Source: Haloarcula sp. CBA1127 (GTDB taxonomy: Archaea > Halobacteriota > Halobacteria > Halobacteriales > Haloarculaceae). From it: a DNA stretch of 64,000 nucleotides. Under the pieces are notes generated by a model that saw only the letters and a list, made by a program, of their open reading frames with translations, made no database searches and was not told the DNA's origin. Of this stretch, positions 7,389 to 51,288 are shown piece after piece. The DNA is taken from the NCBI RefSeq assembly GCF_001485575.1, contig NZ_BCNB01000005.1, forward strand, positions 1 through 64,000, read 5' to 3'. Position numbers and translations under genes: made by a program. The stretch's first letter is position 1. Every line of letters begins with the position of its first letter.

Positions 7389-7417
7389 GCCCCTCACCCG
7401 ACTGGGGCACACAAAAC
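7389..7417 (-). promoter_or_regulatory. Leader hairpin copy 1 (long form)
   Basis: Arms GCCCC (7389-7393) and GGGGC (7404-7408) are followed on the plus strand by CACAAAA (7410-7416), which is TTTTGTG on the coding strand. The box centre lies about 54 bases before the ATG at 7359. A second imperfect hairpin fills the space between. See findings for the family. Confidence 0.7.
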
Positions 7418-7583
7418 AGCCCAGGGCGTCATACAACTCTTCACAAGGTATTGGTTTCAGACAATATGGCCTGAATTGACCACACAGTTGAGCGTGCGTA
7501 CTGACCAATATCAACTGGGGAGCTACTAGAGACCCTGTAATTCCATCAATCAGTTTAATTAAATCCCGAGTTCATTCGCACAT

Positions 7584-8108
7584 ATGTCGGAGAAAGGAAA
7601 CTCAGCCGTTGAAATTCGTCGGTTTCAGTCCGAGGACGGCGAGCGTATCCGTGAGTTAAACGAAATTGCAATGGCAACGACTCCTGAGTATGAGCCAGAT
7701 ATTCCAGATAAAGACCTCCAAGATGTTCAAAACAACTACCTCGACAGTGGCGGGGAATTCCTCGTTGCGATTGTAGATGGCACAATTGTTGGTATGGGGG
7801 CCTATGCGACACCGAATGAGTGGAAAGAGGACCTCATTCAACTCAATAGCCAAACCACTGAACTAACACGAATGCGTATTGATCCTGAGTGCCATGGGCA
7901 GGGAGTTGGAAGTGTTGTCTACCACGAGCTTGAACAGCGTGCGCGGCACGATGGATATGAACAGTTTGTTTTGGACACAGGTGTTGAGAACGACACCGCG
8001 CGTGGGTTCTACGAAAACCTTGGATTCCAATTCCAGCAGGAGGTGTCCATCGACTTTGGAGATCTAGCATTTGAGCTGGTTCTGTACAAAAAGTCCATTA
8101 CTGAATAG
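7584..8108 (+). CDS. GNAT family N-acetyltransferase
   Basis: The protein has 174 residues and would transfer an acetyl group from acetyl-CoA to an unknown amine. The order of elements fits GNAT: an N-terminal strand (VEIRRFQSEDGERIREL), a central strand (FLVAIVDGTIVGMGAYA), the CoA-binding region LTRMRIDPECHGQGVGSVVY with the Q/RxxGxG/A signature (residues about 95-110), and a C-terminal ENDTARGFYENLGF motif. Length is normal for the family. It lies alone on the plus strand with an AT-rich upstream region (TTTAATTAA) suitable for a promoter. It lacks the hairpin leader of its minus-strand neighbours. Confidence 0.85.
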   Translation: MSEKGNSAVEIRRFQSEDGERIRELNEIAMATTPEYEPDIPDKDLQDVQNNYLDSGGEFLVAIVDGTIVGMGAYATPNEWKEDLIQLNSQTTELTRMRIDPECHGQGVGSVVYHELEQRARHDGYEQFVLDTGVENDTARGFYENLGFQFQQEVSIDFGDLAFELVLYKKSITE

Positions 8109-8182
8109 TTGTACTGTATTGAGCGGGCGGGGGAGAGCAGAACGAGTATGCGAACCGTTGTATGACACCCTCAAAACAGCCG

Positions 8183-9007
8183 TCAATCGCTACTCTTGAA
8201 CGCATCCAGACCGGCCTGCTCGCTCGGGACGGATGTTGCAACTGGAGCTGTTCGATCCTTCGAGCCCGCATCCCTCTGTTGCTCTGGACTGGGCTGGTTG
8301 CCTTCCTCAACCGTATTCTCGAAGGCGTCGGTCACCCACTCACGAAGTTCAGAGACTTCCTCCTCGTCTAGCTCGCAAACGCTGCCACCCAACGAAGAGT
8401 ACGAGGTCTGCCACGCTCGCTGGAACTCGACAGTCAGTGAGTCGCCCTGGATAACGTAGGCATCCAGATTCAGGAAACAGCAGTTCAGTGCTGTCATCCG
8501 TGCACATATCGGGTCCTTGTCTTGCCCGAAAAGTAGCGCGTCTGGCTGCTTTCGACCGGCAACCAGTAGCATCCGACCGCTCCCACAGGCCGGGTCAAGA
8601 ACCGTCTGCCGGTCGTCGGTATCACTCTCGCCTGCAACGCCGGCGATCTCGGTCATCGTCTCGCAGACGGTGTGTGGGGTGAAGTGCTGGCCGAAGGCAT
8701 CGCTCGACATCCCGTATTCCTCGTAAACAGCGCCTAGGACGTCCGCATTGGTGGCTGCCATTCGCTCTTGGAGCTGACCGAACGCTTTCGAGAAGAGGTC
8801 GACTGACCGTTGTCCCTCGGGATGGTCCATATCGCCGCGCTCGCGGTAGTCGTCGACGATCTCCAGATATGGGTCGTCCCGGCGCTGAAGCGCGAACAGC
8901 ATGAGGTTGACCCAGTCTCGAAAGACCGTGTGGGCACTATGCCCGCGCTGGCGGATCTGCTCAAGCGTTTCAACAATCCCGTCGACGTCGATCTGTGGCG
9001 AAGCCAT
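8183..9007 (-). CDS. Adenine-specific DNA methylase-like protein (HsdM-like), atypical
   Basis: The protein has 274 residues. The middle contains GQHFTPHTVCETM and the SAM-binding motif DPACGSGRML (about residue 140), both typical of type I HsdM/N6-methylases. FGQDKDPICARMTALN fits the next SAM-binding strand. The family's catalytic NPPY/F motif is not visible after this, and the protein ends much earlier than HsdM, so it may bind SAM or DNA without methylating, or need a partner. The tail has EQAGLDAF, matching the PCNA-binding pattern QxxLxxF and nearly repeated in the protein at 19114-19959. A methylase on an incoming plasmid would suit restriction evasion. Confidence 0.7.
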   Translation of the reverse strand: MASPQIDVDGIVETLEQIRQRGHSAHTVFRDWVNLMLFALQRRDDPYLEIVDDYRERGDMDHPEGQRSVDLFSKAFGQLQERMAATNADVLGAVYEEYGMSSDAFGQHFTPHTVCETMTEIAGVAGESDTDDRQTVLDPACGSGRMLLVAGRKQPDALLFGQDKDPICARMTALNCCFLNLDAYVIQGDSLTVEFQRAWQTSYSSLGGSVCELDEEEVSELREWVTDAFENTVEEGNQPSPEQQRDAGSKDRTAPVATSVPSEQAGLDAFKSSD

Positions 9008-9008
9008 T

Positions 9009-9037
9009 CTCTCTCAGCTCAGAGAGAGGCACAAAAT
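9009..9037 (-). promoter_or_regulatory. Leader hairpin copy 2 (short form)
   Basis: Perfect arms CTCTCTC (9009-9015) and GAGAGAG (9022-9028) with a 6-base loop, then CACAAAAT (9030-9037). The hairpin starts two bases from the ATG at 9007. The box centre is 26 bases before the ATG. Confidence 0.8.
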
Positions 9038-9161
9038 CTGGCCTGCCGGTTAGCGTCGCTCAGGGAATTCTATCCGTCGATCGGTCTGGTTGGTACAGGT
9101 CGTCTATTGGCCATCAAGTGATACACCGAATTTTAATAGTGTAATAGAGATTAGATGAAGT

Positions 9162-9521
9162 ATGAGTTCCAGTCCCTCCCTCAGAAACCGAATCCGTCCG
9201 AGAGCGTTTTTGATTATACTAGTGTTTGTTGTGGGCGGTACCTATTTCGAGTTTATATTTTCTGGGCCACCAAGTCTGTATTCAGTTGCTCTCTGGATAA
9301 TTGTCGTTCCGTTGTTGTTCTCCACGACAGTGAATGGTGTCCGGAGTCACTATCTCTACCAACCGCTCGCGTATGGCAGTTTCATCGCAATCGGTGTCCT
9401 CAACTATCTTGACGGTACTTGGTTCCTTCTCGCAGGGTTGTTCATCCTCGCAGGGATTGTCGGACTGGCTTCTGAACTTCACAATCAGTATACCCCCACA
9501 GTTTCCAGACCGCAACAATAA
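9162..9521 (+). CDS. Small membrane protein with four helices
   Basis: The protein has 119 residues. Four hydrophobic segments are visible (about 15-30, 38-55, 68-84 and 86-105) between a basic N-terminus (SLRNRIRPR) and a polar tail. There is no signal peptidase site or known motif. It is orphaned on the plus strand between two minus-strand leader-driven genes. The positive N-terminus suggests it stays in the cytoplasmic membrane with the N-terminus inside. Function unknown. Confidence 0.65.
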   Translation: MSSSPSLRNRIRPRAFLIILVFVVGGTYFEFIFSGPPSLYSVALWIIVVPLLFSTTVNGVRSHYLYQPLAYGSFIAIGVLNYLDGTWFLLAGLFILAGIVGLASELHNQYTPTVSRPQQ

Positions 9522-10028: not shown

Positions 10029-10035
10029 TATTGGA

Positions 10036-10064
10036 TTCTCTCAGCCGCTAGAGAAACACAAAAT
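10036..10064 (-). promoter_or_regulatory. Leader hairpin copy 3 (short form)
   Basis: Arms TTCTCT (10036-10041) and AGAGAA (10050-10055) enclose loop CAGCCGCT. CACAAAAT follows (10057-10064). The box centre is about 32 bases before the ATG at 10028. Confidence 0.8.
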
Positions 10065-10134
10065 TCGCTTCTCGTTGTCTCTATAGCAACTTTCTTGCTG
10101 TTTGGGGATATATGTGTTAGTACGAGGACTCACC

Positions 10135-10897: not shown

Positions 10898-10927
10898 ATT
10901 TCTCTCGCAGGACGCGCTTTCGGGCTC

Positions 10928-10955
10928 GCCCTGCACCTCATCGGGGCACGCAAAA
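10928..10955 (-). promoter_or_regulatory. Leader hairpin copy 4 (long form, box variant)
   Basis: Arms GCCC (10928-10931) and GGGC (10944-10947), then GCAAAA (10950-10955), so the box reads TTTTGC on the coding strand. About 30 bases of extra leader separate the hairpin from the ATG at 10897. A weaker match than most copies. Confidence 0.5.
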
Positions 10956-10972
10956 CAGCCCGTCACGACGCC

Positions 10973-11872: not shown

Positions 11873-11875
11873 TAA

Positions 11876-12617: not shown

Positions 12618-12661
12618 CGCCCTCTCTGGGACGCCCCTCACCCCGCTGGGGCGCAGAAAAT
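12618..12661 (-). promoter_or_regulatory. Leader hairpin copy 6 (long, two hairpins)
   Basis: Hairpin one: GCCCC (12633-12637) and GGGGC (12648-12652), then GCAGAAAAT. Hairpin two reads CGTCC-CAGAGA-GGGCG on the coding strand and contains a G-T (G-U) pair. At copy 7 the same stem has a Watson-Crick pair there. Confidence 0.75.
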
Positions 12662-12754
12662 TCGAGGGTTAGAGTTTGTGAAGACGTAAGTCTACTATCG
12701 GGCAGAAGTGGGCAGTACAGGGGGCGCACGTATCGGTTAGGACAGAGAGATTGC

Positions 12755-13683: not shown

Positions 13684-13730
13684 GGCACGTCCTCTCTGGG
13701 ACGCCCCTCACCCCACTGGGGCACAGAAAT
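13684..13730 (-). promoter_or_regulatory. Leader hairpin copy 7 (long, two hairpins)
   Basis: Hairpin one: GCCCC (13703-13707) and GGGGC (13718-13722), then CACAGAAAT. Hairpin two, CGTCC-CAGAGA-GGACG on the coding strand, has perfect 5 bp arms. The box centre is about 55 bases before the ATG at 13672. Confidence 0.75.
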
Positions 13731-13731
13731 T

Positions 13732-13799
13732 ACCCGATGGCGCGCTCCTTGGCGGCCGGTTCATCACGACGGGCCTTGCCTGCCTCTAGAAGCGGGACC
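13732..13799 (-). pseudogene. C-terminal remnant of a paralogue of 14328-14558
   Basis: The last codons before the stop at 13732 read EAGKARRDEPAAKERAIG. They line up with REVRRDESDAEEKAVA at the end of the gene at 14328. Both stops are followed directly by the same long leader type. Only about 20 codons survive and then hairpin sequence intrudes, so a duplicated gene-plus-leader unit was later truncated. Confidence 0.5.
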
Positions 13800-17029: not shown

Positions 17030-17793
17030 CGGGACCACCGTGCAAGTGTTGATTGCTCTCTAGCAGTGTCCACAGGGCACAGAAAGCGCCATTTGTAGCG
17101 CTCTCGAATCGGCTTGTCCTCGCGGTTGCTTGCCTGCCCTGGTTCTCGGTAGCCTGTACAGGTCCAGCCCTTGTCTTTCAGTGCTCGAACCATCGCCCCG
17201 TCGTAATCCGAGCGAACCCACGTTAGGAGAAATCGAGTGTCGCGGTCGTCAGCCTGCAAGAAGTGTTCTTGGGAGCGAGCCAGCGCTGCTGAGGCAAGAT
17301 TAGGCATCTGAACGCCCATGCAGATCCGCGCGGCCTCGACGAGCGAGTCGCCAGAAATTACCTCGCTGTCGACGACTGGCGTATCCGTCGGCGGAAGCAC
17401 TCGCCGGGCAGTCGATCGAATCTCTGCAGGAAGGCTCTCAATATCGACGGGCTCAGGACAGAGCTGGCCGTCGACGCCGTACCGAATGCGCTTTTTCGAG
17501 ATCAGAGGGTAGCGGTACGTGATAGCTCCAACGAGCGAGCCTTGGAAGTACAGTCCGTGATGGGCGAGATTGACCGACGGTAGCGACCCCATATATGAGT
17601 GATGCGCCTCGTACACGGCAGCTGCGGTGTCCCTGTCGATTGGTTCGACGGTGACGTGATCGGCGAATCGAATCCCGAGGGGTGCCGTGAACGGGTCTCC
17701 GCCGGCGTGGATCGGACAGGAACACTGCTCTGTCTCCGCTGGCGGGCGATGCTGGAACGACTGTGCTCGCGTCGACGCTGAGTGTATGGACAT
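17026..17793 (-). CDS. Mom-like / GNAT-fold protein
   Basis: The protein has 255 residues. After a Cys/His-containing N-terminus (ETEQCSCPIHAGG), the pattern AAAVYEAHHSYMGSLPSVNL is followed by HGLYFQGSLVGAITYRYPL. Later come PNLASAALARSQEHFL and DTRFLLTWVRSDYDGAMVRA. This order recalls phage Mu Mom-type proteins, a GNAT-related fold that modifies adenines in DNA and blocks restriction. The resemblance is by eye and could instead be another GNAT branch. It starts next to a consensus leader hairpin and is followed by the overlapping zinc protein. Confidence 0.45.
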   Translation of the reverse strand: MSIHSASTRAQSFQHRPPAETEQCSCPIHAGGDPFTAPLGIRFADHVTVEPIDRDTAAAVYEAHHSYMGSLPSVNLAHHGLYFQGSLVGAITYRYPLISKKRIRYGVDGQLCPEPVDIESLPAEIRSTARRVLPPTDTPVVDSEVISGDSLVEAARICMGVQMPNLASAALARSQEHFLQADDRDTRFLLTWVRSDYDGAMVRALKDKGWTCTGYREPGQASNREDKPIRERYKWRFLCPVDTAREQSTLARWSR

Positions 17794-17820
17794 CCTCTCA
17801 CCCGCCGGAGGAACAGAAAA
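17794..17820 (-). promoter_or_regulatory. Leader hairpin copy 10 (short form)
   Basis: CCTC(T) (17794-17798) and GGAGG (17807-17811) enclose CACCCGCC. CAGAAAA follows, so the box is TTTTCTG rather than TTTTGTG. The ATG is at 17793. Confidence 0.75.
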
Positions 17821-17831
17821 CCGCTATCGAG

Positions 17832-18296
17832 TCACCAGGGAGTAATCACAATGCCGGCGTCCGGACCCTCGATGTATATCGGTTCACACCCACGATAGAA
17901 GATCGTGAATCGTTCTGGCTGGTACACAGGATGCTTCGCAAGCGTTGCGACTGCACGGCTCATGTCCGCTGGCGGGAACTGTGGCTCGCCTGACCGGAGG
18001 GCAAGGCGACCGGACTGGAGCACGTCCCACGACTGGAACTGGTAGTCGGCTGGAGGGGTGAACGTCTCTCGGGCCGTCGCGACAAGATACTCCGCACCGT
18101 CGACGACTTTTCCGGCTATGGAATAGCGAGCAGACTCCGGACGAACGGTGACAGCGCCATCGAACACAGAGACTACTTCATTCTTCCAGACAAATGGCGA
18201 TGGTGGCTTGACGACTGGAATTGGTTTCTCGTCGAAGGTCGGTTCAGAACTGTTCTCAGATGCTCCGCCACTGGCTTCGGATGTGTGTTCTGTCAT
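17832..18296 (-). CDS. Paralogue of the C-terminal domain of 18332-19012
   Basis: The protein has 154 residues. From about residue 35 it matches the neighbour: AGKVVDGAEYLVATARETFT, then a Trp-containing segment (FQSWDVLQSGRLA), PERFTIFYRG and YIEGPDAGIVI. It lacks the neighbour's zinc-binding N-terminus. Each copy has its own leader hairpin, so the duplication included the leader. The domain is unknown. The ending is strand-rich. Confidence 0.6.
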   Translation of the reverse strand: MTEHTSEASGGASENSSEPTFDEKPIPVVKPPSPFVWKNEVVSVFDGAVTVRPESARYSIAGKVVDGAEYLVATARETFTPPADYQFQSWDVLQSGRLALRSGEPQFPPADMSRAVATLAKHPVYQPERFTIFYRGCEPIYIEGPDAGIVITPW

Positions 18297-18324
18297 CCTC
18301 TCACCCGCCGGAGGAACAGAAAAT
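18297..18324 (-). promoter_or_regulatory. Leader hairpin copy 11 (short form)
   Basis: CCTCT (18297-18301) and GGAGG (18310-18314) enclose CACCCGCC, then CAGAAAAT (18317-18324). Abuts the ATG at 18296. Confidence 0.8.
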
Positions 18325-18331
18325 TGGTGAG

Positions 18332-22661: not shown

Positions 22662-22665
22662 CTTG

Positions 22666-22697
22666 GACTCCCTCACTCCAAAGGGGAGTCACAAAAT
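22666..22697 (-). promoter_or_regulatory. Leader hairpin copy 15 (short form)
   Basis: GACTCCC (22666-22672) and GGGAGTC (22684-22690) pair perfectly over 7 bp. CACAAAAT is at 22690-22697. The box centre is 32 bases before the ATG at 22661. Confidence 0.85.
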
Positions 22698-22735
22698 ATG
22701 GCTCTCAAGCACGACTGGAAAGACACCGCACCCTC

Positions 22736-24721: not shown

Positions 24722-24729
24722 GAAGGAAA

Positions 24730-24758
24730 TCCCTCACTCGACCGGGGAGACACAAAAT
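24730..24758 (-). promoter_or_regulatory. Leader hairpin copy 17 (short form, weak stem)
   Basis: TCCC (24730-24733) and GGGA (24745-24748), then CACAAAAT (24751-24758). The box centre is 33 bases before the ATG at 24721. Confidence 0.7.
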
Positions 24759-24764
24759 TAGCGC

Positions 24765-27624: not shown

Positions 27625-27661
27625 GGGAATATTTTTATGACTTGCCCGTATGCTCCACAAT

Positions 27662-31247: not shown

Positions 31248-31256
31248 GCACACACA

Positions 31257-33329: not shown

Positions 33330-34174
33330 CAAAGCAAGATATACCACGAAATAGCAGTATCGACCGTAGAACAGTACTGGGACTCCTCAGCGGGAGTCTT
33401 GCCACGCTTGCAGGATGCAGTGGCGGGCTGTTTGATGACAGTGGCGGAGACGGCGGAAGTGCCAGCCCGCCAGAAGAGCAGTCCGACTACATCGAAGAAA
33501 CATCGATTGAGATTGTCGAGAACGGCCGCCAATTGGCTCTGGAGGTGGCTGTGACCGATGAGATCGAGCCGTCATCGGTTAGCATCATCACAGAGTCCGG
33601 TCGGGAGTTCTCCAGCGACTACTTCAGCTCCGGTGAAACTCGGACACGCCTCTCACTAACAGAAGGAGAGGACTCGTACGAACCGCTGCCTCGGGGCCAG
33701 CACACGCTCTATCTCCGTGGGGATGACGTTGAAACTGAACTCCCACTCGAACTGGGCACCACGTTTGAGTTTGAGGAAATCGTCCCCGGGACTGAGCATG
33801 AAGAGATCCGCGACGATAGCCTAGGGATGGTTGTCCGGAATGTGGGCCAGCGAACTGGCGCAGCAACGCGGACAATCCTCAACGGAGAAAACAAAGACAG
33901 CAAGGCATTTGAACCAATAAAGCCGGGTGAAACCGGGATTGTCGAATTTACTTTTCTCCTCGCTGATGGCCCGCACTGCGTAAAAGTTGAAGAAACAACT
34001 CTAAGAGAGGAGGAATTGACTGTTGGATTCCTCTGGAGTGACCCGGTTACTGTCATCCAACCTATACAGTATACCGACAGGTTTGACAGCACCGGTAACG
34101 GGTGCAAACGAACCCTAGCTGGTGAGCCAGAAGAGGTCACCACAACCCCGACAAAGACGGAGATGGAGACGTAG
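33326..34174 (+). CDS. Tat lipoprotein of the conjugation operon
   Basis: The protein has 282 residues. The N-terminus is a clear Tat lipobox signal: twin arginine in DRRTVLGLLSGSLATLAGC with the lipidated Cys at about 31. A Gly/Ser/Asp spacer follows, then a strand-rich domain with IEIVENGRQLALEVAVTDE and CVKVEETTLREEELTVGF. It is exported folded and tethered to the membrane outer face. Its position between a surface protein and VirB6 suggests it belongs to the cell-envelope part of the transfer machine. Confidence 0.7.
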   Translation: MTKQDIPRNSSIDRRTVLGLLSGSLATLAGCSGGLFDDSGGDGGSASPPEEQSDYIEETSIEIVENGRQLALEVAVTDEIEPSSVSIITESGREFSSDYFSSGETRTRLSLTEGEDSYEPLPRGQHTLYLRGDDVETELPLELGTTFEFEEIVPGTEHEEIRDDSLGMVVRNVGQRTGAATRTILNGENKDSKAFEPIKPGETGIVEFTFLLADGPHCVKVEETTLREEELTVGFLWSDPVTVIQPIQYTDRFDSTGNGCKRTLAGEPEEVTTTPTKTEMET

Positions 34175-34176
34175 CA

Positions 34177-35853: not shown

Positions 35854-38800
35854 TGGCTGATAACGAAGAATACAATACGAACATCATCCACGAATCCCTC
35901 GGAGATTCGACCAACTTTTGGGGAGACTACACGCTGGGGGAACTCATCCTGTTCCTCATCCCGCCGTTTGGCTTCCTCGTCGCGATGGGGATGCCGTTCG
36001 TACCAGCGGCGCTGTTCTTCCCAGCGTTGGCTCTCACAGCGGTCGTCGAGGTCTTCCTCTATATCCTGCACAAAGTCCGTCCGGACCACTATCGGTTGAC
36101 CGAGTGGCTGCGAGTCAAACTGTTTTGGCTCGTGAAAAAGCGGCAGTACACTCACGGCCAGGGGAATCAGGACACTCGGCAGGTCACGCGACTAGAGCGG
36201 GTCATGCCCCACGGCATTGAGCGCGTCGACGGAGCGTACGTCGGCGCGGTCGAGGTCGAGCCCGCCAATATGTCGTTGCAGGACGACGAGAAATGGAATA
36301 AAGCCGTCAAGTCGCTCACACGCCTGTCTGAATCCCTGACTGGCCGGGCGAAACTCCACGTCACGACGGCCGAGGTCGATAACGAGTCCCATATCCAGGC
36401 ACACGTCGACCGACTCGACGACCCCGACGCGGAGAGCCATTCGATCTTCCGGGGAGTCCTCATGGAGTTCGTCAACCGCTACACCGACGACAGCGGCAAC
36501 GTTGAGACTGAGACTGAACTCCAGCGCAAGTACTACATCGTCGTTTGGGTCACTGACGACGATATTCACGACCTCCAGATGAACAGCGACTCCATCGCGG
36601 ATTACTTGACTGGGATACCGGTCATTGGGCGGCTGTTCACTCGATTCGACAGTGACACGCTCACTGATGCCGAGCGAGAGGAGTTTAAGGCCAAGAAACT
36701 CCACGACCGGCTCGAAACCGTCGACAGAGCAGTCAACAATATGTTCCGGTGTCGCAGCCGGTCGGTCAGCCCCCACGAACTGGCCCACTTGACCGAGGAC
36801 TACTGGGCCTGCGAAACCCGGTCGGAACGCGAGTACGAAGAGGCGTCCTCCGTCTCCCCGGTGACATACTCCGCGCGGGAACTCATCAAGCACGGCGAGG
36901 GTGCTGCAGCCCACGACGCTGCGGAGGGCATGGACACTGACGACGTTGGCGGGACCGACTACGAGGTCGACGAGACTGACTTCGTCTCCCAGTTGCATAG
37001 ACCGGGAGAGAACCACCGGTCACTGGTCGCGCCAACAGATATCGAATGGGAAGCCGACCACGCCCTCATCGATCAGGAGACGTACACGCGGTGCTTCTGG
37101 ATCGAGACGTATCCCGAACATCCGACAAGTGGGATGCTGGAACAACTGCTGCTGGATACGGAGCTTGCCGTCGACGTCTCAATCTACGTTGATCCCTACG
37201 ACTCGGATGCAGCAGTCTCGGTGATGAAAGAGTGGATCTCGTCGCTGAAGATGCTGCAAAACGACAAGGGAGAACTTGAGGCTGAAGATATCGAGCAGGA
37301 GGTCAATCAGGCGAAGTACATCCGGCAGATGGTCCGGCGCAACCACACGTCGCTGTTCCGTGTCGGCGCGTTCATCCGGTTGACTGCCGAGACCGAAGAG
37401 GAACTGCGGAAGCAAACGAACCGGCTCGAAACGCTGCTGCGGGACTCGCCGTCGAACTGTGGGGTCAAGCGAACGACCCGCCGGCAGGAAGCAGGACTGG
37501 TGACAGTCTCGCCGATCGGAGCCAACGAACTCGGGCAGAACCGGCTCTCCTCGATGACTGGGGAAGCGCTCGGGTCGCTGTTCCCGTTTTCGTCGAACTA
37601 CCTGCGGATGGACGACGGAATCGAGTACGGACTACACGGGCACAACGACTCCTCGCTGTTGATCGACCCGTGGGCACTGGAAACCGGCCACTCTGAGCTG
37701 GTGACTGGGATGCCTGGCGGCGGAAAGACTCACGGCACGCAGGCTCGGGCGATGCGGATGCTGAAAAAGCGGTCGGACGTCAAGCAGATCTACGTCGACC
37801 CGGTCGGGGATATGCACGGCAGTGCGAAGATGCTGGATGCAAAGACGATCACAATCAGCGGCGAGACGCCGCTGAATCCGTGCGAGATGCATCCGACGCC
37901 GCCTCATGTTCTTGAACAGTCCCCGGATATGCAGCCCGTCTCAGCAAAAAAAGACGAAGTGTACGGGGTCATCGAGAACTTCCTGCAATCGCGGGATGTC
38001 GACTTGGAGATGCACAGCGGACTCATCACGTTCCTGATCGACACGATCTTCGCTGAGTCCGATATCGACCCAGCGGACCCGTCGACGCATACGCCGGCGA
38101 ACTCGCCGGACTTGAGCGATTTCTTGGAAGTTGTCGACCGCCTGCAAGCAGACCCGGGAATGTTCCCCGGAGCAACGACGGAGTCCTCTCAGGAGAAAAT
38201 CCAGCAGTACGCAAACGAACTCTCGATTGCGCTGCATCCGTTCCGGCCGGGAAGTACGTTCGGCAATCTCTCGAAAGAGTCGGACCTGCGGCTGATCGAC
38301 GACAGTAGCAAGGCTGTCTATCTGGATCTCCAGCAGGTCGAAGGCTCGGGCAGTGGCCTCGGCAAGCAGTCGTTCATTATGCAGTTGCTGTTGTCGACGC
38401 TGTACCAGCAGGCGAAAAATATGCAGCAGAAGGTCGAGATCATCATCGACGAAGCTCACTACCTGTTCAACGACGACGCGAACTTGGAGTCGCTGAACCA
38501 GATTGCTCGGCACCAGCGCCACGCCGGACTGCGGCTGGTGATGCTGTCCCAGACGCTCTCAGAGTTCGAGGACAAGGGCGCTGCTGAGGAAATTGCGGGG
38601 ATGTGTCCGATCAAGGTGCATCACCGCGAGCCAGAGCTAGGTGATGAGACCGCGAAAAGCGCTGGCCTGACGAGCGAACAGCAGTCCTACATCCAGCACG
38701 CTGAAGCCGGGAAAGAGTCACTGGGTGACGGACAGGGCTATTCGCAAGCACTGGTCCGCGTTGATGAACACGGCGATTACCCGCTGACGATCAAGACGTC

Positions 38801-39104
38801 GTGGGAAGAGAAGCAGATTATCGACCTCGACGCTGATGCGGAAGATGCGCTGGACGTTGTTGCTCACGAGGTTGATCCCCACGTTGCTGACTTCGAAGAG
38901 TTCGTCCATTCCAAAGCAGTCGAGCAAGAGCTAACGAATCACGGATTATCGCCTGAGAAGGCTGAACACGTCCTCAATGATCTTAGCGAAGATGAGTTGG
39001 TGGACGTGGTGTCTGTAGCACTTGACCAGGCAGAGCCGGATGCAGTTATCGCCGATGGTGGTATCGAGGCAGAGACTGATTTCGAGTTCGGAACTACGGA
39101 GTGA
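35853..39104 (+). CDS. virB4: VirB4-like ATPase with fused PrgI/VirB3-like N-terminus
   Basis: The protein has 1083 residues. The N-terminal 90 have two membrane helices (LGELILFLIPPFGFLVAMGM) like VirB3/PrgI. The main body has Walker A GMPGGGKTHGTQ (about 620) and Walker B KVEIIIDEAHYLF (about 860), with RHQRHAGLRLVMLSQ further on, all typical of VirB4. VirB4 powers pilus assembly and DNA translocation. The fusion of VirB3 and VirB4 is known in other conjugation systems. The acidic C-terminal extension (about 1000-1083) is extra. Confidence 0.9.
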   Translation: MADNEEYNTNIIHESLGDSTNFWGDYTLGELILFLIPPFGFLVAMGMPFVPAALFFPALALTAVVEVFLYILHKVRPDHYRLTEWLRVKLFWLVKKRQYTHGQGNQDTRQVTRLERVMPHGIERVDGAYVGAVEVEPANMSLQDDEKWNKAVKSLTRLSESLTGRAKLHVTTAEVDNESHIQAHVDRLDDPDAESHSIFRGVLMEFVNRYTDDSGNVETETELQRKYYIVVWVTDDDIHDLQMNSDSIADYLTGIPVIGRLFTRFDSDTLTDAEREEFKAKKLHDRLETVDRAVNNMFRCRSRSVSPHELAHLTEDYWACETRSEREYEEASSVSPVTYSARELIKHGEGAAAHDAAEGMDTDDVGGTDYEVDETDFVSQLHRPGENHRSLVAPTDIEWEADHALIDQETYTRCFWIETYPEHPTSGMLEQLLLDTELAVDVSIYVDPYDSDAAVSVMKEWISSLKMLQNDKGELEAEDIEQEVNQAKYIRQMVRRNHTSLFRVGAFIRLTAETEEELRKQTNRLETLLRDSPSNCGVKRTTRRQEAGLVTVSPIGANELGQNRLSSMTGEALGSLFPFSSNYLRMDDGIEYGLHGHNDSSLLIDPWALETGHSELVTGMPGGGKTHGTQARAMRMLKKRSDVKQIYVDPVGDMHGSAKMLDAKTITISGETPLNPCEMHPTPPHVLEQSPDMQPVSAKKDEVYGVIENFLQSRDVDLEMHSGLITFLIDTIFAESDIDPADPSTHTPANSPDLSDFLEVVDRLQADPGMFPGATTESSQEKIQQYANELSIALHPFRPGSTFGNLSKESDLRLIDDSSKAVYLDLQQVEGSGSGLGKQSFIMQLLLSTLYQQAKNMQQKVEIIIDEAHYLFNDDANLESLNQIARHQRHAGLRLVMLSQTLSEFEDKGAAEEIAGMCPIKVHHREPELGDETAKSAGLTSEQQSYIQHAEAGKESLGDGQGYSQALVRVDEHGDYPLTIKTSWEEKQIIDLDADAEDALDVVAHEVDPHVADFEEFVHSKAVEQELTNHGLSPEKAEHVLNDLSEDELVDVVSVALDQAEPDAVIADGGIEAETDFEFGTTE

Positions 39105-39109
39105 TTCAT

Positions 39110-39487
39110 ATGAGTGAAAAAGTTACAATTCGGATGAGTGCAGAGCAGCGAAAACAGATCGTAAAGCAGGCTAACAAAGCGGGTGAAGGGGTTTCAGAGT
39201 ACATTCTGAAAGCTGCGGAACGGCGTATTTCGAGCGAACTACAGGAACAGCGTGCGGGGGAATTAAACCTTGGATCGGAACTGGAGTACATCGCTGATGC
39301 CGTCGTAGAAGACGTTGATGAAGCAACAAACGTTGACACGGATCAGGAACTGTTCTACTCGGTCGCTCTGTGGGATTTAATTTCCTCTGAGTTCCCGGCA
39401 GACAAGCGCGCTACTGCGATGGAAGAAGCGACAGATAAACTAGAGGATGAGGTTGAAACCATCCGAAACAAGGAGGGTCAGGAATGA
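39110..39487 (+). CDS. Small RHH-like protein, possible relaxosome accessory factor
   Basis: The protein has 125 residues from the ATG at 39110. VTIRMSAEQRKQIVKQANKA followed by GVSEYILKAAERRI has the strand-helix-helix shape of ribbon-helix-helix DNA-binding proteins. The second half is acidic and helical. It precedes a paralogue and a HUH relaxase candidate, and in many conjugation systems RHH proteins bind oriT next to the relaxase. It overlaps the next gene by 4 bases. Confidence 0.6.
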   Translation: MSEKVTIRMSAEQRKQIVKQANKAGEGVSEYILKAAERRISSELQEQRAGELNLGSELEYIADAVVEDVDEATNVDTDQELFYSVALWDLISSEFPADKRATAMEEATDKLEDEVETIRNKEGQE

Positions 39488-39957
39488 CTGAGAGAGACAC
39501 TCTACTCCAGATTTATACGAGTGAAGAGAACAAAGAATTGTTTGACCAGTTGGCTGACGCCGCGGGGACATCCACCTCCGAATACGGACACGAGGTTATC
39601 GAGGAATACGTTGAGTGGGAGACTGGAGAGAGTCAGTATCAGCGGTACAGCACTAACACAAAAATCGAAGTCTTGCTGGAGGAGGCAAAGCGCGAGGTGA
39701 CAGAGCTGTTAGAAGAATTTGAGTCTGGAACAATGGAGGAGGTAAAAACCGTCCAAAAAGTCCGGACGGCATACACTATCGCGATCTGGAAACTGATTCA
39801 AGATGACTACTCAGCTGAACAGCGACGGCTTGCGCTGAAATTTGCCGGCGAGCATGTTGGGAGAGATCCAGACACAGAATCGCAAACACCAGACGAGGAA
39901 AGCAACCCTGATTCAGATGCCTCGATTGCCGCCGAACCGGCAGGTGAGAGTGCATGA
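39484..39957 (+). CDS. Paralogous RHH-like protein
   Basis: The protein has 157 residues and shares the layout of its neighbour: LLQIYTSEENKELFDQLADA, GTSTSEYGHEVIEEYV, then a helical region (VQKVRTAYTIAIWKLIQDDY) corresponding to FYSVALWDLISSEF in the other. The pair looks like an old duplication. The C-terminus is disordered and acidic. A role at oriT with the relaxase is inferred from position. Its stop overlaps the relaxase start. Confidence 0.55.
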   Translation: MTERDTLLQIYTSEENKELFDQLADAAGTSTSEYGHEVIEEYVEWETGESQYQRYSTNTKIEVLLEEAKREVTELLEEFESGTMEEVKTVQKVRTAYTIAIWKLIQDDYSAEQRRLALKFAGEHVGRDPDTESQTPDEESNPDSDASIAAEPAGESA

Positions 39958-40709
39958 TGCTGAAAACAGATTATCAGGAGGGTGGTGCAGGGAACCTCGT
40001 CGATTACATTCAGCGTGTTCGCGAACAGGACGCCGGCGCGGCAGTTGACCTCCGAAACCCAGCTGGGCGAGAACTGTCTGACTCAGAGGTGAATCGGTTT
40101 GTCAACAAGAGCCGCGAGTTCGGATTCCAGCGGCATTTAATCGTCTCGCCAGATCCCACAGGACAATATTCGCCAGAAGAAGTCCGTGATAACACTCGGG
40201 AACTGGTGAATAGCGGGCTGGCTCAACAACCGACAACCGACTGCGTGTATGGTGTTCACCGAGACACAGAGTTTCCCCATGCACATATCGCGGCGACTGG
40301 CGAGCGTGCGGAATTAGAAATGGGTCGGGAAGATATCCGACAGATGCGCGAACAAGCAGCGACTGCGTTTGAAGAACCCGCTCGAACACGCGACCCAACG
40401 GCTGCCGCCCGTGATTCTCCCGAGGACATTGGCCGGGTCGTGGATGAAGAAGCACGGGAGCAGTACCACGAGGCAGAACTAGCGTTGAACCCCGAAGCGG
40501 AAAAAGCGCTCAAACGGGCGACTGAGAAGAGTCAGCAGAAAGACGCCGGACAGCCCACGGCTGAGAAAGCGACCGATGAGCGCCAAACTGAGCCACTCTC
40601 AGAGCGTGCTGGGGAGAGGACCGAAGAGCAACCGGAACCTGAACGCGAACCCGAAGTTGATCTTGAACGCGAGCAGGAACCCGAGCGCGAAGTTGGGTGG
40701 TGGCAGTGA
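39954..40709 (+). CDS. HUH relaxase candidate (MobA/VirD2-like)
   Basis: The protein has 251 residues. It begins with LKTDYQEGGAGNLVDYIQ (possible catalytic Tyr in the first 20 residues), continues with FQRHLIVSPDPTGQYSPEEV and then YGVHRDTEFPHAHIAATG (residues about 99-116), where three His give the HxxxxxxHxH metal site of HUH relaxases. The C-terminal 110 residues are highly charged helix without motifs. A relaxase nicks oriT and pilots the strand. It is small for a relaxase, so DNA recognition may need the RHH proteins just upstream. The next gene is the coupling protein. Confidence 0.7.
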   Translation: MMLKTDYQEGGAGNLVDYIQRVREQDAGAAVDLRNPAGRELSDSEVNRFVNKSREFGFQRHLIVSPDPTGQYSPEEVRDNTRELVNSGLAQQPTTDCVYGVHRDTEFPHAHIAATGERAELEMGREDIRQMREQAATAFEEPARTRDPTAAARDSPEDIGRVVDEEAREQYHEAELALNPEAEKALKRATEKSQQKDAGQPTAEKATDERQTEPLSERAGERTEEQPEPEREPEVDLEREQEPEREVGWWQ

Positions 40710-42922
40710 GTTCGAGTTCCTCTGCACCACCAGGACAACGCTCCGGGGAGGTTCCGAATAGCCTCAAGTACGACAACGTCGTCGGGTTCGTCTGGGCCGG
40801 ATTTATGCTGTTGTTCCCGCCGATGATCGTCGATAGTGACAAGGTCCTTCCGAAGCGGTTCTGGGCGTGGCGCTACATCTACCTCGGGTTCGGACTGATT
40901 AGTGTGGCGTTCTTCTACGACGTGCTGGTCCAGACACCCAGCGTCGCATTGCTATTCCCATTCGCACACGTTCTGGCTGCCATCTCGGTCGGGACACTGT
41001 TCGCTGACTTCACCGTGCCCGGCCTGTCGCTGCCGATGCTCTCGTACTCGAATACGGTGATTCTGTATGCTATCTCAATCGGTATCGTGTTCTCCGGGGA
41101 GCTGCTCCGCCGGACATCGCCGGAAATGCTCGCGATGAACCAGTGGGACCACGACGACGGGGAGTCCGTCGTCCCGCTGGAAGAGGTCTCTCACGAACAC
41201 AACGAGGCCGAAATGCCGTTCACCCTCGATCAGGATGTCTCTACAGCCGTCGTGGGCGAGACTGGTTCGGGGAAGACGTCGATGATGAAGCTGCTGGCCT
41301 ACCAGTTCCCATACTACAGTAACACGGCAGTCATCGCCCACGATACTGGTGAGGACTTCCAAGCATTCTACGAGGAGCTGGGCTTTGAGGTCCAGCGCAT
41401 CCGCCACGAAGATAGCGATGTGGTCTGGAATCTGTTCAAGGACGCTGATTCAGAGTCGGACTTCCGTGAGGTCGCCGGCGCGATCTTCGGCGAAGCCGAC
41501 GGCCACGACCCGTTCCACCGGCCCGCCAAACAGACCTTCGCGGAGATGCTGATGTATCTGCATCTCAGCGCGAAAAAGAACAACCGCCGCCATGCGCTCT
41601 GTCACGCCGATATCGTCTCCTTGCTCAACGAGGGCCACATCGCGCTGAAGGAAGCCCTCGACGAGTTTGACCGGTTGGACTCGGGTCATATCGACCCTGA
41701 CAAGGGGAAAGGCGCACAGAACGTTTACCAGACGATCAAGGAGAACGTCGATCCCGTCTTCACCGGCGACTTCGGAGACTACGGGGAGTTCTCGCTGCAA
41801 GAGTACATCGAGAACCCCGAAGGACGGGTCCTCATCATTGACTCGAACCCGACGGAACTGGAAACGCTTGGGCCGATGTATCAACTGCTCGTGGACTGGT
41901 CGATCCGCTACGCGATGAACGCCTCGAATCCCACGGTCCACATCCTCGACGAGATTGACGCGCTGCCGGCGCTCACGCAGGTAACGAACCTCACGGCGCG
42001 AGGCCGGAAACACAAGGCTCGGGCACTGGTCGGCGTACAGACAATCGGCCAGCTCAAGGACACGTACAGTACGATCTCTGGGATTGTCGGCAACTGCCCA
42101 CAGGGAGTCTACTTTGGTCCGGGTGACAGTGAGTCGACGGACTTCATCCTCGACGAACTCGGCGAGAGTCGGCAGTATGATCGCTCGGAGATGGTCTCGA
42201 TGAGTCACCAGGGGCGTGGCGAGAACCCACGAACGCAGGCTCGGGACACGTATAAAGAGAAGGACAAAACGCCGGTCACGTCCGGCCTGCTCCGAGACTT
42301 CCAGCCCGGTGAGTGCGTTGCCGTCTCTCGGACGACGTGGGTCCACGGGCAGTCCTACGAACTGGCTGACGTTCGCGACAGCCTCCCGGCGCAGGGCGCG
42401 GAGTCGCCGGGCAGTTCGGAACCAGAGCCAACGGAAGATGACACCGACATAGAGAACGACAGTTGGTTCTCGTTCACTCGGGCTCGACTTGACGATGTAC
42501 TCCGTGGGTCAGTTGGTGAGACCGACGGCGATGAATCCAGAAATAGTGGCCCGGATCGTAACCCGGAAGTCGAGCCGACCGTCGACGCGACAGACGGGTT
42601 GGGCGACGACGATTCCAGTGACCCACTCGACCAGACAACAGCAAACACTGCCGTCACACCTCCGGACACAGACCGCCCAGACCTATCAGGTGAAGAAGAT
42701 GAGTACGACGGTGGCGATCACGACCAGCAGTCCGACGACAACACCGGGGGACTCTTCTCTGATCCGGACCCAGATCCCAGCTTAGGTGGGGCGGAATCTG
42801 CCGAGCAGGAAGGCGGTGAATCACCCACTGAATCAGATGCAGAGGAAGACTCAAACGAGACTGAAGAGCGGGACGAAACTGAGTCAAAAGAGGAGGAGCG
42901 CGACGTATCTGAGTTCATGTAA
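40706..42922 (+). CDS. virD4: VirD4/TraD-like coupling ATPase
   Basis: The preferred start is the GTG at 40706, which overlaps the relaxase stop by 4 bases (738 residues); GTGs at 40697 and 40700 are also in frame. Membrane helices lie in the first 130 residues. The ATPase has Walker A VVGETGSGKTSMMKLL (about 184) and Walker B VHILDEIDALPAL (about 410), with GIVGNCPQGVYFGPGDSEST near the end of the core. The last 200 residues are acidic and disordered. The coupling protein links the relaxase-DNA complex to the VirB channel. It ends the operon. Confidence 0.9.
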   Translation: MSSSSSAPPGQRSGEVPNSLKYDNVVGFVWAGFMLLFPPMIVDSDKVLPKRFWAWRYIYLGFGLISVAFFYDVLVQTPSVALLFPFAHVLAAISVGTLFADFTVPGLSLPMLSYSNTVILYAISIGIVFSGELLRRTSPEMLAMNQWDHDDGESVVPLEEVSHEHNEAEMPFTLDQDVSTAVVGETGSGKTSMMKLLAYQFPYYSNTAVIAHDTGEDFQAFYEELGFEVQRIRHEDSDVVWNLFKDADSESDFREVAGAIFGEADGHDPFHRPAKQTFAEMLMYLHLSAKKNNRRHALCHADIVSLLNEGHIALKEALDEFDRLDSGHIDPDKGKGAQNVYQTIKENVDPVFTGDFGDYGEFSLQEYIENPEGRVLIIDSNPTELETLGPMYQLLVDWSIRYAMNASNPTVHILDEIDALPALTQVTNLTARGRKHKARALVGVQTIGQLKDTYSTISGIVGNCPQGVYFGPGDSESTDFILDELGESRQYDRSEMVSMSHQGRGENPRTQARDTYKEKDKTPVTSGLLRDFQPGECVAVSRTTWVHGQSYELADVRDSLPAQGAESPGSSEPEPTEDDTDIENDSWFSFTRARLDDVLRGSVGETDGDESRNSGPDRNPEVEPTVDATDGLGDDDSSDPLDQTTANTAVTPPDTDRPDLSGEEDEYDGGDHDQQSDDNTGGLFSDPDPDPSLGGAESAEQEGGESPTESDAEEDSNETEERDETESKEEERDVSEFM

Positions 42923-43087
42923 TCCGCTGTTGTGAACTCGTTTCTGTATATAGAGTATCTAATACTTTTGTGCTGTTCTGCGACTGTAATTCTCTCTACT
43001 ACGTTGGTAAGAGTGGATTGCAAGTACGCCCACCCTCTATTTTGTCAGATACCAATACTTACCTTTATTGCTACTATTATATCTCTG

Positions 43088-43182
43088 AAATCGCAGGACG
43101 GCGGCGGTTTTACTCCGGTTTGAATCACCAGCAGTGAATCACCACATCCGACTGAAACAAATCTAAATCGCAAGACGGCGGC
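43088..43182. repeat. 18 bp direct repeat downstream of coupling protein
   Basis: AAATCGCAGGACGGCGGC (43088-43105) and AAATCGCAAGACGGCGGC (43165-43182) differ at one base and are 77 bases apart. A related short string (AAAACCGCCG) lies shortly after. The location next to relaxase and coupling genes makes oriT or an operator possible. Confidence 0.55.
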
Positions 43183-43713
43183 CGAATTATTCACCGAAAA
43201 CCGCCGATGTAAGACACTCTTTATCTTGTCCTTTGGCGATTCAGTCGTGAGCCGGGCGCTAGAAACAACGATACATAAGAAATAGAACATAGGTGCCGGT
43301 GACCAACAGCAAACCTCGGATAGAGTAGAGCCCGCCCACTCAGCCCCCGGCTACAACTATTGGAGAACAGATATGTCTCGACTCACTCCCCAGAGTCCAA
43401 TCGGGACTGCACACGGCGGGCCAGCCCCACCGAACATCATGTGAGTCTACTGTGCCACGCACGTCGCCGGCCACCGACGTCCAAGGCCACGCCGATCACG
43501 ACCTCGTTCAAACTGAGCCAGCGCTGGCAGACCCACGCTCGATCCTCGCTCACTTCGGCCCCTCGTGGCGCATACCTTGTTGCCCACTGACGAGGAACCA
43601 CACCACTTTGTCCGGAGCTTTGTATCTGATTCCCAACAGGTACAATGCACCTTGTTTTCGTACTCACTCAGTAGCGTAATTTAGTGTGGCATTCAGCCGA
43701 GAACCGGTCCGAT
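43183..43713. other. Gene-free stretch with a diverged repeat copy
   Basis: No convincing gene on either strand. Around 43490-43565 there is sequence like the GC-rich dispersed repeat (CTGGCAGACCCACGCTCG), suggesting an eroded copy. The left third is AT-rich. Confidence 0.35.
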
Positions 43714-43950
43714 TCCCGGCGGGGATCGCGCCCGCTACTGCAGGCACGATTGGACCGGCGTGAGGCGCGCGATAGCGCCGAGCGCAGCGCCCCGTCGTCC
43801 GAGTGAGCGCTAGCGAACGAGGACACGACAGACGAGCACCGCGAGGCTGTCAGTGGCGTCGCGCGCTGGGACGTTCCACCTGCCGTCCAGCCTCAGTTGC
43901 GCTCGGGCCGGCAGACCCACGCCTGCGATCTATCCGGGACTCCGTGGGAC
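43714..43950. repeat. GC-rich dispersed repeat, copy R1
   Basis: Begins CCCGGCGGGGATCGCGCCCG, contains GCCGAGCGCAGCGCCCCGTC and a GTGAGCGCTAGCGAACGAGG segment, and ends with GCCGGCAGACCCACGCCTG. About 155 bases recur at R2 and R3, and the 3' part recurs at R4. Confidence 0.75.
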
Positions 43951-44035
43951 CAGTACCTCGACGTGTGCCAACTGGAGCCACCCGGACCCGGAGATTTTTG
44001 AGCGATGACGGCCAAGTCTGAATCGCACCGTTCTC

Positions 44036-44584: not shown

Positions 44585-44624
44585 GGCCCTATCTGGCCAC
44601 CACCTGCCTGCGGTCACACAAAAT
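44585..44624 (-). promoter_or_regulatory. Leader copy 20 (diverged) with Shine-Dalgarno
   Basis: CACAAAAT (44617-44624) is present. The hairpin is GGCC (44585-44588) with GGCC (44595-44598), further from the box than usual. A GGAGGTGA site lies between hairpin and ATG. This copy helps separate promoter from translation signals. Confidence 0.6.
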
Positions 44625-44665
44625 TGGAGATGAGTACCGTCTGGGATACCGGTCCCAGACACCGA

Positions 44666-50497: not shown

Positions 50498-50650
50498 TCA
50501 CACGGTGTTCTTGTGGCCTTCCTCGCAGATGACGAGAGGTTCGGTGCGCGGATCGCGAGCGCGTGGGTCTGTTTCGACGTTGACAGTCTCTGTCTTGGCG
50601 ATTTCTGCGTTACAGTCCTCGTTCGGGCAGGTACCTTCAGTCTCGGACAT
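50498..50650 (-). CDS. 50-residue zinc-binding protein
   Basis: The ATG at 50650 gives 50 residues with CPNEDCNAEI near the start and VICEEGHKN near the end, a likely Cys/His zinc site. It is too small for most gene finders, but a perfect leader hairpin and ATTTTGTG box sit directly in front, and the frame has acidic haloarchaeal composition. Function unknown. It is in the same orientation as the operon at 51250-50747. Confidence 0.65.
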   Translation of the reverse strand: MSETEGTCPNEDCNAEIAKTETVNVETDPRARDPRTEPLVICEEGHKNTV

Positions 50651-50653
50651 TGT

Positions 50654-50682
50654 GTTCCTCGCCCGCCAGGAACTCACAAAAT
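50654..50682 (-). promoter_or_regulatory. Leader hairpin copy 21 (short form)
   Basis: GTTCCT (50654-50659) and AGGAAC (50668-50673) enclose CGCCCGCC; CACAAAAT at 50675-50682. Box centre 28 bases before the ATG at 50650. Confidence 0.85.
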
Positions 50683-50746
50683 ATCGACCAGCGAACCCGG
50701 TCCGACAATGGACTCGAGGGTTGCTCTCCAGAAAAGAGAGTCTCGC

Positions 50747-51112
50747 TTACAGGAGACGAGCGAGCAACTTTTTGAAGCGACCTGTAATACTGGACGTCTC
50801 GTTGATCTCGATCTCGACAAGACAAGAACACAGTAGCAACTGCTCGCCACACGCGGGGCACTCTTCGTAGTCACACATCTGGTGGTGGAGCTCGCCTTGC
50901 TCGACGCCACAGGCAGGACACGAGCGGTCGCGCCACCGTTCAGGGTCGATCACAGCGGTTGGCTCACCACTTTCGAGCGTTTGCCGCTCGTAGGTGAGAG
51001 ACTGGCTGCCCTCGCCCCACGGAATCGGGTCGAAAGCCTGCCCGTCGATATGGTAGCGTTTGTCGACACATGCCGACGCCGACTGTGGCCGATGGCAGTC
51101 GGGACAACACAT
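50747..51112 (-). CDS. Multi-cysteine zinc protein
   Basis: The protein has 121 residues with CCPDCH at the start, then CPACGVEQGELHHQMC and CPACGEQLLLCSC, enough for two or three zinc sites. The C-terminus is a helix (SITGRFKKLLARLL). It starts directly after the stop of the 45-residue gene and shares its leader. The pair resembles the zinc protein next to the Mom-like gene in layout. Role unknown. Confidence 0.6.
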   Translation of the reverse strand: MCCPDCHRPQSASACVDKRYHIDGQAFDPIPWGEGSQSLTYERQTLESGEPTAVIDPERWRDRSCPACGVEQGELHHQMCDYEECPACGEQLLLCSCLVEIEINETSSITGRFKKLLARLL

Positions 51113-51250
51113 CTACTTGTTACCCCGACGACGGCCCTGAAAGACCTCGCCGCGTTCCTGTGCCTGTCGATGCTGGGCACGAATGTCTGGTTGGTCGTCG
51201 GCTTCGGTATCTGAAGGCTGTTCATCGACGGACTGCTGTTCGGTACTCAT
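51113..51250 (-). CDS. 45-residue leader-driven small protein
   Basis: The ATG at 51250 gives 45 residues: an acidic, Gln-rich N-terminal half (STEQQSVDEQPSDTEADDQ) and a basic end (FQGRRRGNK). It is directly followed by the multi-cysteine gene without a gap. The leader hairpin in front supports expression. No known family; it may be disordered and act as an adaptor. Confidence 0.55.
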   Translation of the reverse strand: MSTEQQSVDEQPSDTEADDQPDIRAQHRQAQERGEVFQGRRRGNK

Positions 51251-51259
51251 GATCGGGAA

Positions 51260-51288
51260 ACCCCTCGCCCAGTGGGGGGTCACAAAAT
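51260..51288 (-). promoter_or_regulatory. Leader hairpin copy 22 (short form)
   Basis: ACCCC (51260-51264) and GGGGT (51276-51280), then CACAAAAT (51281-51288). Box centre 34 bases before the ATG at 51250. The rightmost copy in the window. Confidence 0.8.

Follow-up and report, generated by a model that had tools for sequence, protein, structure and literature searches.

A box-and-hairpin leader before genes of haloarchaeal conjugative plasmids, a candidate TATA-less core promoter

Recurrent leaders on one strand of a conjugative plasmid

We analysed a window of 64,000 nucleotides from Haloarcula sp. CBA1127 (contig NZ_BCNB01000005.1, positions 1 to 64,000), and we report here on a short leader, a T-rich box followed by a hairpin, that recurs before its minus-strand genes. 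The window is part of contig C5 of a 4.36-Mb genome. Across the 23 kb compared it is identical to NZ_CP010533, plasmid unnamed4 of Haloarcula sp. CBA1115 (104,322 bp, circular, typed MPF_T). A conjugation operon lies on the plus strand. The minus-strand genes include an N-6 methylase, an ArdC-like protein, a transcription initiation factor of the IIB family (TFB), a SWIM protein and a DUF6884 protein (Pfam), as well as Mom-like and PCNA-like proteins that both score below the Pfam cut-offs. A Cdc6 gene is also carried.

An earlier note, made from the letters of the window, had listed 22 copies of the leader. Twenty were borne out, both by alignment and by R1, a covariance model built from these same 20 window leaders, so its matching them is expected. 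The copy at 20970 proved false: it has no R1 match, and TATTTAAC stands upstream. The copy at 11876, which belongs to the TFB gene, is decayed. Its 3′ arm has been lost in this plasmid and R1 does not match it; the leaders of TFB orthologues on most other plasmids examined do match. The leaders and the main landmarks of the window are listed below.

7382..7418, minus: leader, long form, R1 42.9 bits; gene 7117-7359
9002..9038, minus: leader, short form, R1 28.4 bits; before N-6 DNA methylase gene 8183-9007 (Pfam N6_Mtase)
10029..10065, minus: leader, short form, R1 35.8 bits; first gene, divergent neighbour 70 nt from the leader
10921..10957, minus: leader, long form, R1 29.5 bits
10973..11878, minus: open reading frame, plasmid TFB gene (Pfam TFIIB, Zn_Ribbon_TF)
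about 11870-11898, minus: decayed leader copy of the TFB gene, no R1 match
12626..12662, minus: leader, long form, R1 40.2 bits, R2 (second model, see below) E 0.005; before SWIM zinc-finger gene
13696..13732, minus: leader, long form, R1 40.0 bits
14294..14330, minus: leader, long form, R1 35.3 bits
15358..15394, minus: leader, short form, R1 42.6 bits; stem ending at ATG 15365, divergent neighbour 158 nt away
17786..17822, minus: leader, short form, R1 38.9 bits; before weakly Mom-like gene 17026-17793 (Mom match 22.6 bits, under Pfam's cut-off)
18289..18325, minus: leader, short form, R1 41.0 bits
19005..19041, minus: leader, short form, R1 40.5 bits
19957..19993, minus: leader, short form, R1 35.5 bits; before DUF6884 gene (Pfam)
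22662..22698, minus: leader, short form, R1 27.7 bits
23722..23758, minus: leader, long form, R1 27.6 bits; before ArdC-like gene 22736-23695 (Pfam ArdcN)
24723..24759, minus: leader, short form, R1 30.1 bits
25723..25759, minus: leader, short form, R1 21.6 bits; before weakly PCNA-like gene 24843-25721 (PCNA_N match 17.8 bits, under Pfam's cut-off)
26804..26840, minus: leader, short form, R1 43.1 bits; first gene of the main array
30747..42922, plus: conjugation operon with pilin, VirB4-like ATPase, NikA-like protein, relaxase and coupling protein (Pfam, NCBIfam)
42923..44035, no strand assigned: candidate origin of transfer (oriT), the non-coding stretch behind the coupling-protein gene, conserved best from about 43378
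44589..44625, minus: leader, long form, R1 25.9 bits; near the oriT candidate
50647..50683, minus: leader, short form, R1 33.9 bits
51253..51289, minus: leader, short form, R1 35.4 bits

The recurrence is well above chance. ATTTTGTG occurs 14 times in the window against 1.34 expected, an excess of about tenfold, with 13 of the 14 occurrences on the minus strand, and none of 100 shuffles reached 14. A box followed by a stem of at least 5 bp was found 23 times on the minus strand and 6 times on the plus strand; 20 random sequences with the window's dinucleotide make-up gave 2-13 (mean 7). The 20 leaders form a gap-free alignment of 37 columns (A1; one row was entered one base short). Its layout is a TTTTgTG box, usually 1 nt, a 5-bp stem, a loop of about 10 nt (NNNNGGGYGA) and the returning 5-bp arm. 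Standard pairs fill 86% of its stem cells compared with 70.9% after shuffling, and its covariation score is 0.503 compared with 0.236; for neither measure did any of 500 shuffles come as high.

Rfam 15 at its gathering score gave no match within the window, and no tRNA was found there. CRISPR repeats, considered as an identity for the leader, showed no likeness to it by eye. The exact leader pattern had no match in viral contigs, and the pattern with narrow spacing had none in the window's own genome.

Pairing, spacing and spread of the leader

Four R1 searches of fetched loci yielded 550 matches, of which 386 were distinct; 364 of the 386 can, in one register or another, pair by perfect Watson-Crick rules over 4 bp or more. 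The loop measures 10-11 nt in 248 of 292 leaders, and GGGCGA and GGCTGA are among its variants. The earlier note had argued for selection on pairing, and the larger set agrees. In an alignment of 133 distinct leaders, nearly all from other genomes (A6), 91.9% of stem cells are paired against 74.8% after shuffling, and 154 cells have changed on both sides, as many as in none of 500 shuffles. The 5′ arm is pyrimidine-rich and the 3′ arm purine-rich, so the freedom of the stem sequence is incomplete.

The proposed link to start codons also held up, since 357 of the 386 distinct leaders have, 27-65 nt from the box, an ATG that begins an open frame of 45 codons or more. Distances from the start of the box to the ATG cluster at 27-29 nt (107 leaders), 35-38 nt (89) and 57-61 nt (113), as expected for a fixed transcription start with a 5′ untranslated region (UTR) of variable length. 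The commonest distance, 27 nt (81/386), makes the ATG abut the stem. In the short form the ATG lies mostly 27-38 nt past the first T of the box. In the long form (122/386) the distance is 51-65 nt, and these leaders have a second hairpin, of the CGTCC CAGAGA GGGCG type. This hairpin has 70 G-U and 2 A-C cells in the 109 scored of the 122 long-form leaders, counts that are not independent because these leaders are related. In several long forms, for example downstream of 13696-13732, a GTG in the loop shares the reading frame of the ATG, and a start there would extend the protein by a VRGVPERxCRLPIM-like sequence. We rejected this GTG as a start codon, as a TGA closes the frame in the 7382 copy.

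R1 does not match haloarchaeal DNA at random density, which by the earlier note would have counted against the leader. At E ≤ 0.01 it matched just 14 of 96 genomes of the family; eight genomes of the genus had 13-71 matches each and the others 0-2. At E ≤ 0.005, 20 of 32 genus genomes matched. An analogous leader, with a box that is mostly (G)TTTTTC and a loop ending in GGGTGC or GGCGGA, is found on conjugative plasmids of Natronomonas, Halorubrum, Haloglomus and Salarchaeum. A second covariance model, R2, was built from 16 leaders of other genera and at E ≤ 0.001 matched 122 of 242 genomes of the class (45 of 74 genera). Of 148 genomes drawn from the phylum it matched 14, all in the window's order (24 genomes of that order were printed), with none in the 10 printed genomes from outside the order or in 114 others whose kinship is not shown.

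An ATG with such an open frame follows within about 110 nt in 85 of 89 distinct R2 leaders, and 82 have it at most 57 nt from the stem end. In an alignment of 93 distinct R2 leaders (A8), 75.6% of cells are paired against 68.7% after shuffling, with 37 both-side changes and a covariation score of 0.194 against 0.093. When the partner position was slid by -1, 81.3% of 375 counted cells paired; the register of the R2 stem is thus less sharp. A6 and A8 were each fitted to their own covariance model. R2 weakly recovers four long-form window leaders (E 0.005-0.14). To judge from their sequences, R1 and R2 leaders look like variants of one design, which does not imply descent from a common ancestor.

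The restriction to one strand, noticed in the window, is true of the whole plasmid and of two other complete plasmids. All 24 leaders of NZ_CP010533 are minus, all 25 of NZ_CP010532 are plus and all 27 of NZ_CP073372 are plus (76/76). The opposite strands of these plasmids hold 40, 46 and 51 coding sequences (CDS), respectively, and no leaders; on all three, the transfer operon lies opposite the leader strand. In the window, no R1 match falls on the conjugation operon's own strand (plus, 30747..42922). The probability of the one-strand bias on the three plasmids is 6e-18 if leaders followed the CDS ratio independently, a figure that operons make overstated. Leaders keep to a single strand at 53 of 55 R1 loci with at least three matches and at 21 of 21 R2 loci, counts in which several loci overlap or share one plasmid; the two exceptions are L001, with one weak match, and L091, which is truly mixed.

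The leader also occurs together with a particular TFB. We called a TFB plasmid-type when it scored at least 300 bits to the window TFB, a threshold set afterwards at the gap above 266. Such a TFB is present in 18 of 20 R1-positive and 0 of 12 R1-negative genomes of the genus (Fisher 4e-7). Of the 29 plasmid-type TFB genes, 20 start inside a locus that was fetched. Eighteen of these 20 are immediately preceded by an R1 leader in the same orientation; the exceptions are the window's own gene and that of G086:C5. In the window's own genome, contigs C3, C4, C5 and C9 carry one plasmid-type TFB each, on the leader strand. G065:C1 has two oppositely oriented arrays, each with a TFB on its own strand. 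A second TFB class (about 240-266 bits) occurs on nine contigs with R2 leaders (G026:C60, G107:C6, G116:C7, G097:C4, G104:C3, G112:C37, G102:C3, G105:C9 and G105:C10) and, among the matches listed, on 7 of the 11 contigs that have three or more R2 leaders. R2 leaders were also seen about 80 nt before TFB genes at G111:C1:1708648 and G112:C12:2768, and one of these two genes lies on a contig of at least 1.7 Mb.

Promoter, RNA element or transfer signal

At slightly better than even confidence, we favour the explanation that the leader is the core promoter of a plasmid regulon, one that contains a hairpin and lacks a TATA box. Its reader would probably be the plasmid's TFB, and transcripts would begin at the ATG or shortly before it. 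The leader would then work as DNA. In place of a TATA box there would be the T-rich box, which reads TTTTGTG in Haloarcula and mostly (G)TTTTTC in the other genera, and the hairpin-forming stretch behind it would span the segment that must melt. Transcription would start about 27 nt past the start of the box, which is at the ATG in the commonest short form. In the long form it would start about 30 nt before the ATG, and the second hairpin would then lie in the 5′ UTR. The plasmid TFB would steer the host RNA polymerase to the leaders, so that the regulon would be switched as a unit. Since the leaders of each replicon share one strand, their use is probably coupled to conjugative transfer, and the strand that is transferred would serve as the template.

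The earlier note had put the box where the TATA box of a leaderless gene would sit, and both the 27-nt mode and the TATA counts fit that placement. TATA-like sequence stands before 0 of 355 leader genes at -45..-20 and before 2 of 355 at -60..-1; the first of these tests, which looks for a TATA box about 26 nt before the start, presumes that transcription starts close to the ATG. For those CDS of NZ_CP010533 that have 60 nt or more in front, TATA-like sequence at -60..-1 precedes 0 of 14 leader CDS and 18 of 53 other CDS. The canonical haloarchaeal promoter consists of a TATA box and a B recognition element (BRE). The leader resembles it in having a box at the leaderless TATA distance and a TFB gene on the same element, but differs in lacking any TATA-like match or conserved BRE and in adding a hairpin. 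No conserved bases were found upstream of the box in 157 distinct short forms. On the three complete plasmids, 14 of the 76 leaders stand before a first gene whose neighbour is divergent; six of the gaps measure 51-70 nt, and in 12 of these 14 there is no TATA-like sequence upstream of the box on the leader strand, in the up to 170 nt examined.

Several observations weigh against a promoter of this kind. Three orthologous divergent cases (of the type at 10029) have an upstream CATATA, which lies outside the TATA expression used, and two others have TTTAA 133-145 nt upstream. A co-directional gene precedes 62 of the 76 leaders, so read-through and an RNA role are possible. Mispairs in stem 1 of the R2 family lean to G-T (9 distinct sequences, against 1 with C-A). 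As for the TFB, the R1-positive genomes G026 and G105 have no plasmid-type TFB among the matches listed, and the same holds for some contigs with several R1 matches, such as G096:C65 and G105:C12. Four of the 11 contigs that have three or more R2 leaders lack the second class: G101:C42, G093:C1 and G097:C6 have no TFB among the matches listed, and that of G111:C2 scores 214 bits. The TFB gene is itself an array gene, so linkage alone may give the co-occurrence. Two further points concern transfer. If oriT lies at the candidate site, the main array would enter late; and on the Natronomonas plasmid the leaders and the transfer operon point the same way. Because of these two points, the suggested link to single-stranded transfer is a lead and not a finding.

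A less probable but still serious alternative is that the leader acts as RNA within operon transcripts, its hairpin being a translation start signal or a regulator's site and its GGTGA loop pairing with the tail of 16S rRNA. The co-directional genes and the G-T lean of R2 given above suit this alternative, as does the strong covariation of the stem. The GGGTGA loop suits the anti-Shine-Dalgarno core, and its spacing is suitable where the ATG lies at 27-29 nt, that is, for 107 of 386 leaders and not for the others. However, in the form seen most often the ATG directly adjoins the stem, the loop is kept in the long forms too, where it is about 30 nt too far from the ATG, and the GGGCGA and GGCTGA loops pair less well to rRNA. 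Where a divergent neighbour lies close to a first gene, mostly no other promoter is seen. An RNA element gives no reason for the single strand per replicon, and G-U pairs are rare in Haloarcula stem 1 (9 of 665 cells in A6).

An early excess of C-A over G-T (35 versus 7; 35 versus 5) was discarded, as it had been inflated by register shifts beside the GA at the loop end. A strict hand tally of single mispairs in Haloarcula stem 1, with ambiguous rows excluded, leaves 9 C-A and 4 G-T (p 0.27 versus equality). Because of this tally and the opposite lean of R2, we did not use wobble counts in stem 1 as strand evidence. The second hairpin of the long form contrasts with stem 1 and, because it tolerates G-U, appears to behave as RNA. 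The contrast between the hairpins would fit a transcription start between them, but R2 stem 1 leans to G-T. On the question, left by the earlier note, whether the leader acts as DNA, RNA or both, the balance leans to DNA.

A narrower form of the promoter explanation, which we consider doubtful, is a promoter of single-stranded DNA: the hairpin would form on the incoming template strand, and establishment genes would be read before the second strand is made. The shared strand of all 76 leaders on three plasmids, opposite the transfer operon, suits it. The leader strand carries ArdC-like, methylase and SSB-like (SOSS-B) genes, although R1 finds no leader before the SOSS-B gene. As single-stranded DNA, eight plus-strand segments have folding energies of -3.7 to -7.3 kcal/mol (z -1.1 to -4.1). 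The oriT candidate is part of a conserved block, about 1.3 kb at 80-84% identity to two other plasmids, that runs into two small genes. Two further intergenic stretches were compared: before the transfer operon conservation spans just 116 nt, and before Cdc6 there is none among the plasmids compared. A nick site proposed by eye from a relaxase consensus was set aside. Transfer genes usually enter last in conjugation. If 42923..44035 holds the oriT and the transfer genes do enter last, the plus strand would therefore be the one transferred and would be the template of the leader genes. Set against this, the main array is distant from the oriT candidate, the Natronomonas leaders point along the transfer operon, and stem 1 mispairs give no consistent strand (9 C-A versus 4 G-T in Haloarcula, 1 versus 9 in R2).

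It is very improbable that the leaders are priming sites for complementary-strand synthesis, or attC-like cassette recombination sites, that stand before genes by chance; the single strand per replicon, the hairpins and the neighbouring genes that vary between plasmids would suit such sites, but 357 of 386 leaders lie at a few preferred distances from an ATG, and orthologous genes retain their own leader type (by eye).

Neighbouring features, related systems and meaning

Beside the Cdc6 gene, window positions 26830-27660 hold direct and inverted repeats of 25-31 nt and are likely a replication origin. To the right of the transfer operon, outside annotated genes, a GC-rich block of about 110-205 bp recurs with 81-88% identity among its repeats (43718-43922, 44790-44970, about 46.28-46.39 kb and 47.70-47.95 kb); parts of it also occur on other plasmids. 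A HamA/HamB pair at 57170-60714 on the plus strand (PADLOC HamA 185 bits, HamB 1026 bits), which we take to be a Hachiman-type defence system, has no R1 match on its strand. A plus-strand helicase gene at 54243-56456, annotated as a nuclease-related domain DEAD/DEAH helicase, matches PADLOC helicase models and is a defence candidate. On the Natronomonas plasmid NZ_CP101324, a protein with an NrS-1 polymerase-like HBD domain is encoded behind the transfer operon (L108:45275-46528).

Three known systems invite comparison. Frpo of F-like plasmids, as presented in PMC11541004, folds so that its -35 and -10 elements mimic a duplex, and was sought there in regulatory regions of 50-350 bp. Like Frpo/ssi structures, the leader stands before anti-defence, methylase and SSB-type genes of conjugative plasmids, on one strand; unlike them, it is archaeal, measures about 37 nt and occurs in 24-27 copies per plasmid. 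The hexamers of Frpo lie inside the folded duplex, and the leader's box lies outside its 5-bp stem. Promoters of the phage N4 virion RNA polymerase have a 3-base loop centred at -11 and are used by the phage polymerase with host SSB, according to PMC4496689. The leader shares with them a conserved loop, a stem that varies while the hairpin is kept (its 5′ arm staying pyrimidine-rich) and the place of the hairpin just upstream of the putative start (PMC4496689). It lacks their 3-base loop at -11, its own loop measuring 10-11 nt, and no N4-type polymerase appeared among the part of the plasmid proteins scanned with Pfam or NCBIfam. The leader thus departs from Frpo, and likewise from N4 promoters, in one or more of the features that define them.

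The third system, EGeRS1/2 of the bacterial plasmid pLS20, is described in PMC8708921 as far longer than single-stranded-DNA promoters, with a fold that holds no promoter and with the transferred strand as non-template. As with EGeRS, one repeated sequence precedes many establishment operons of conjugative plasmids (PMC8708921), and we found the leader in common before several presumed operons of this kind. We infer that the leader genes are establishment genes from their ArdC-like, methylase and similar products. By analogy, the leader may resemble N4 promoters in its working and would occupy the place that Frpo and EGeRS hold on bacterial plasmids. The literature searched, mostly open-access, gave no description of such an element and no archaeal counterpart.

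The leader appears to be a hitherto undescribed switch that serves a whole set of plasmid genes. If the promoter explanation is correct, it would be a core-promoter type outside the archaeal TATA/BRE scheme, present in half of the haloarchaeal genomes sampled (122/242). A bolder version, which we think unlikely, holds that tens of hairpin promoters on the transferred strand are read from single-stranded DNA at entry with a dedicated plasmid-encoded TFB, forming a class-wide establishment regulon with two leader lineages, each with its own TFB class. If true, these would be the first archaeal single-strand promoters, and the establishment regulon would have its own general transcription factor. 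The leader marks a regulon that conjugative plasmids seem to switch together, points to establishment and anti-defence genes among the many uncharacterised genes of haloarchaeal plasmids, and would give some of the numerous TFBs of haloarchaea a concrete role.

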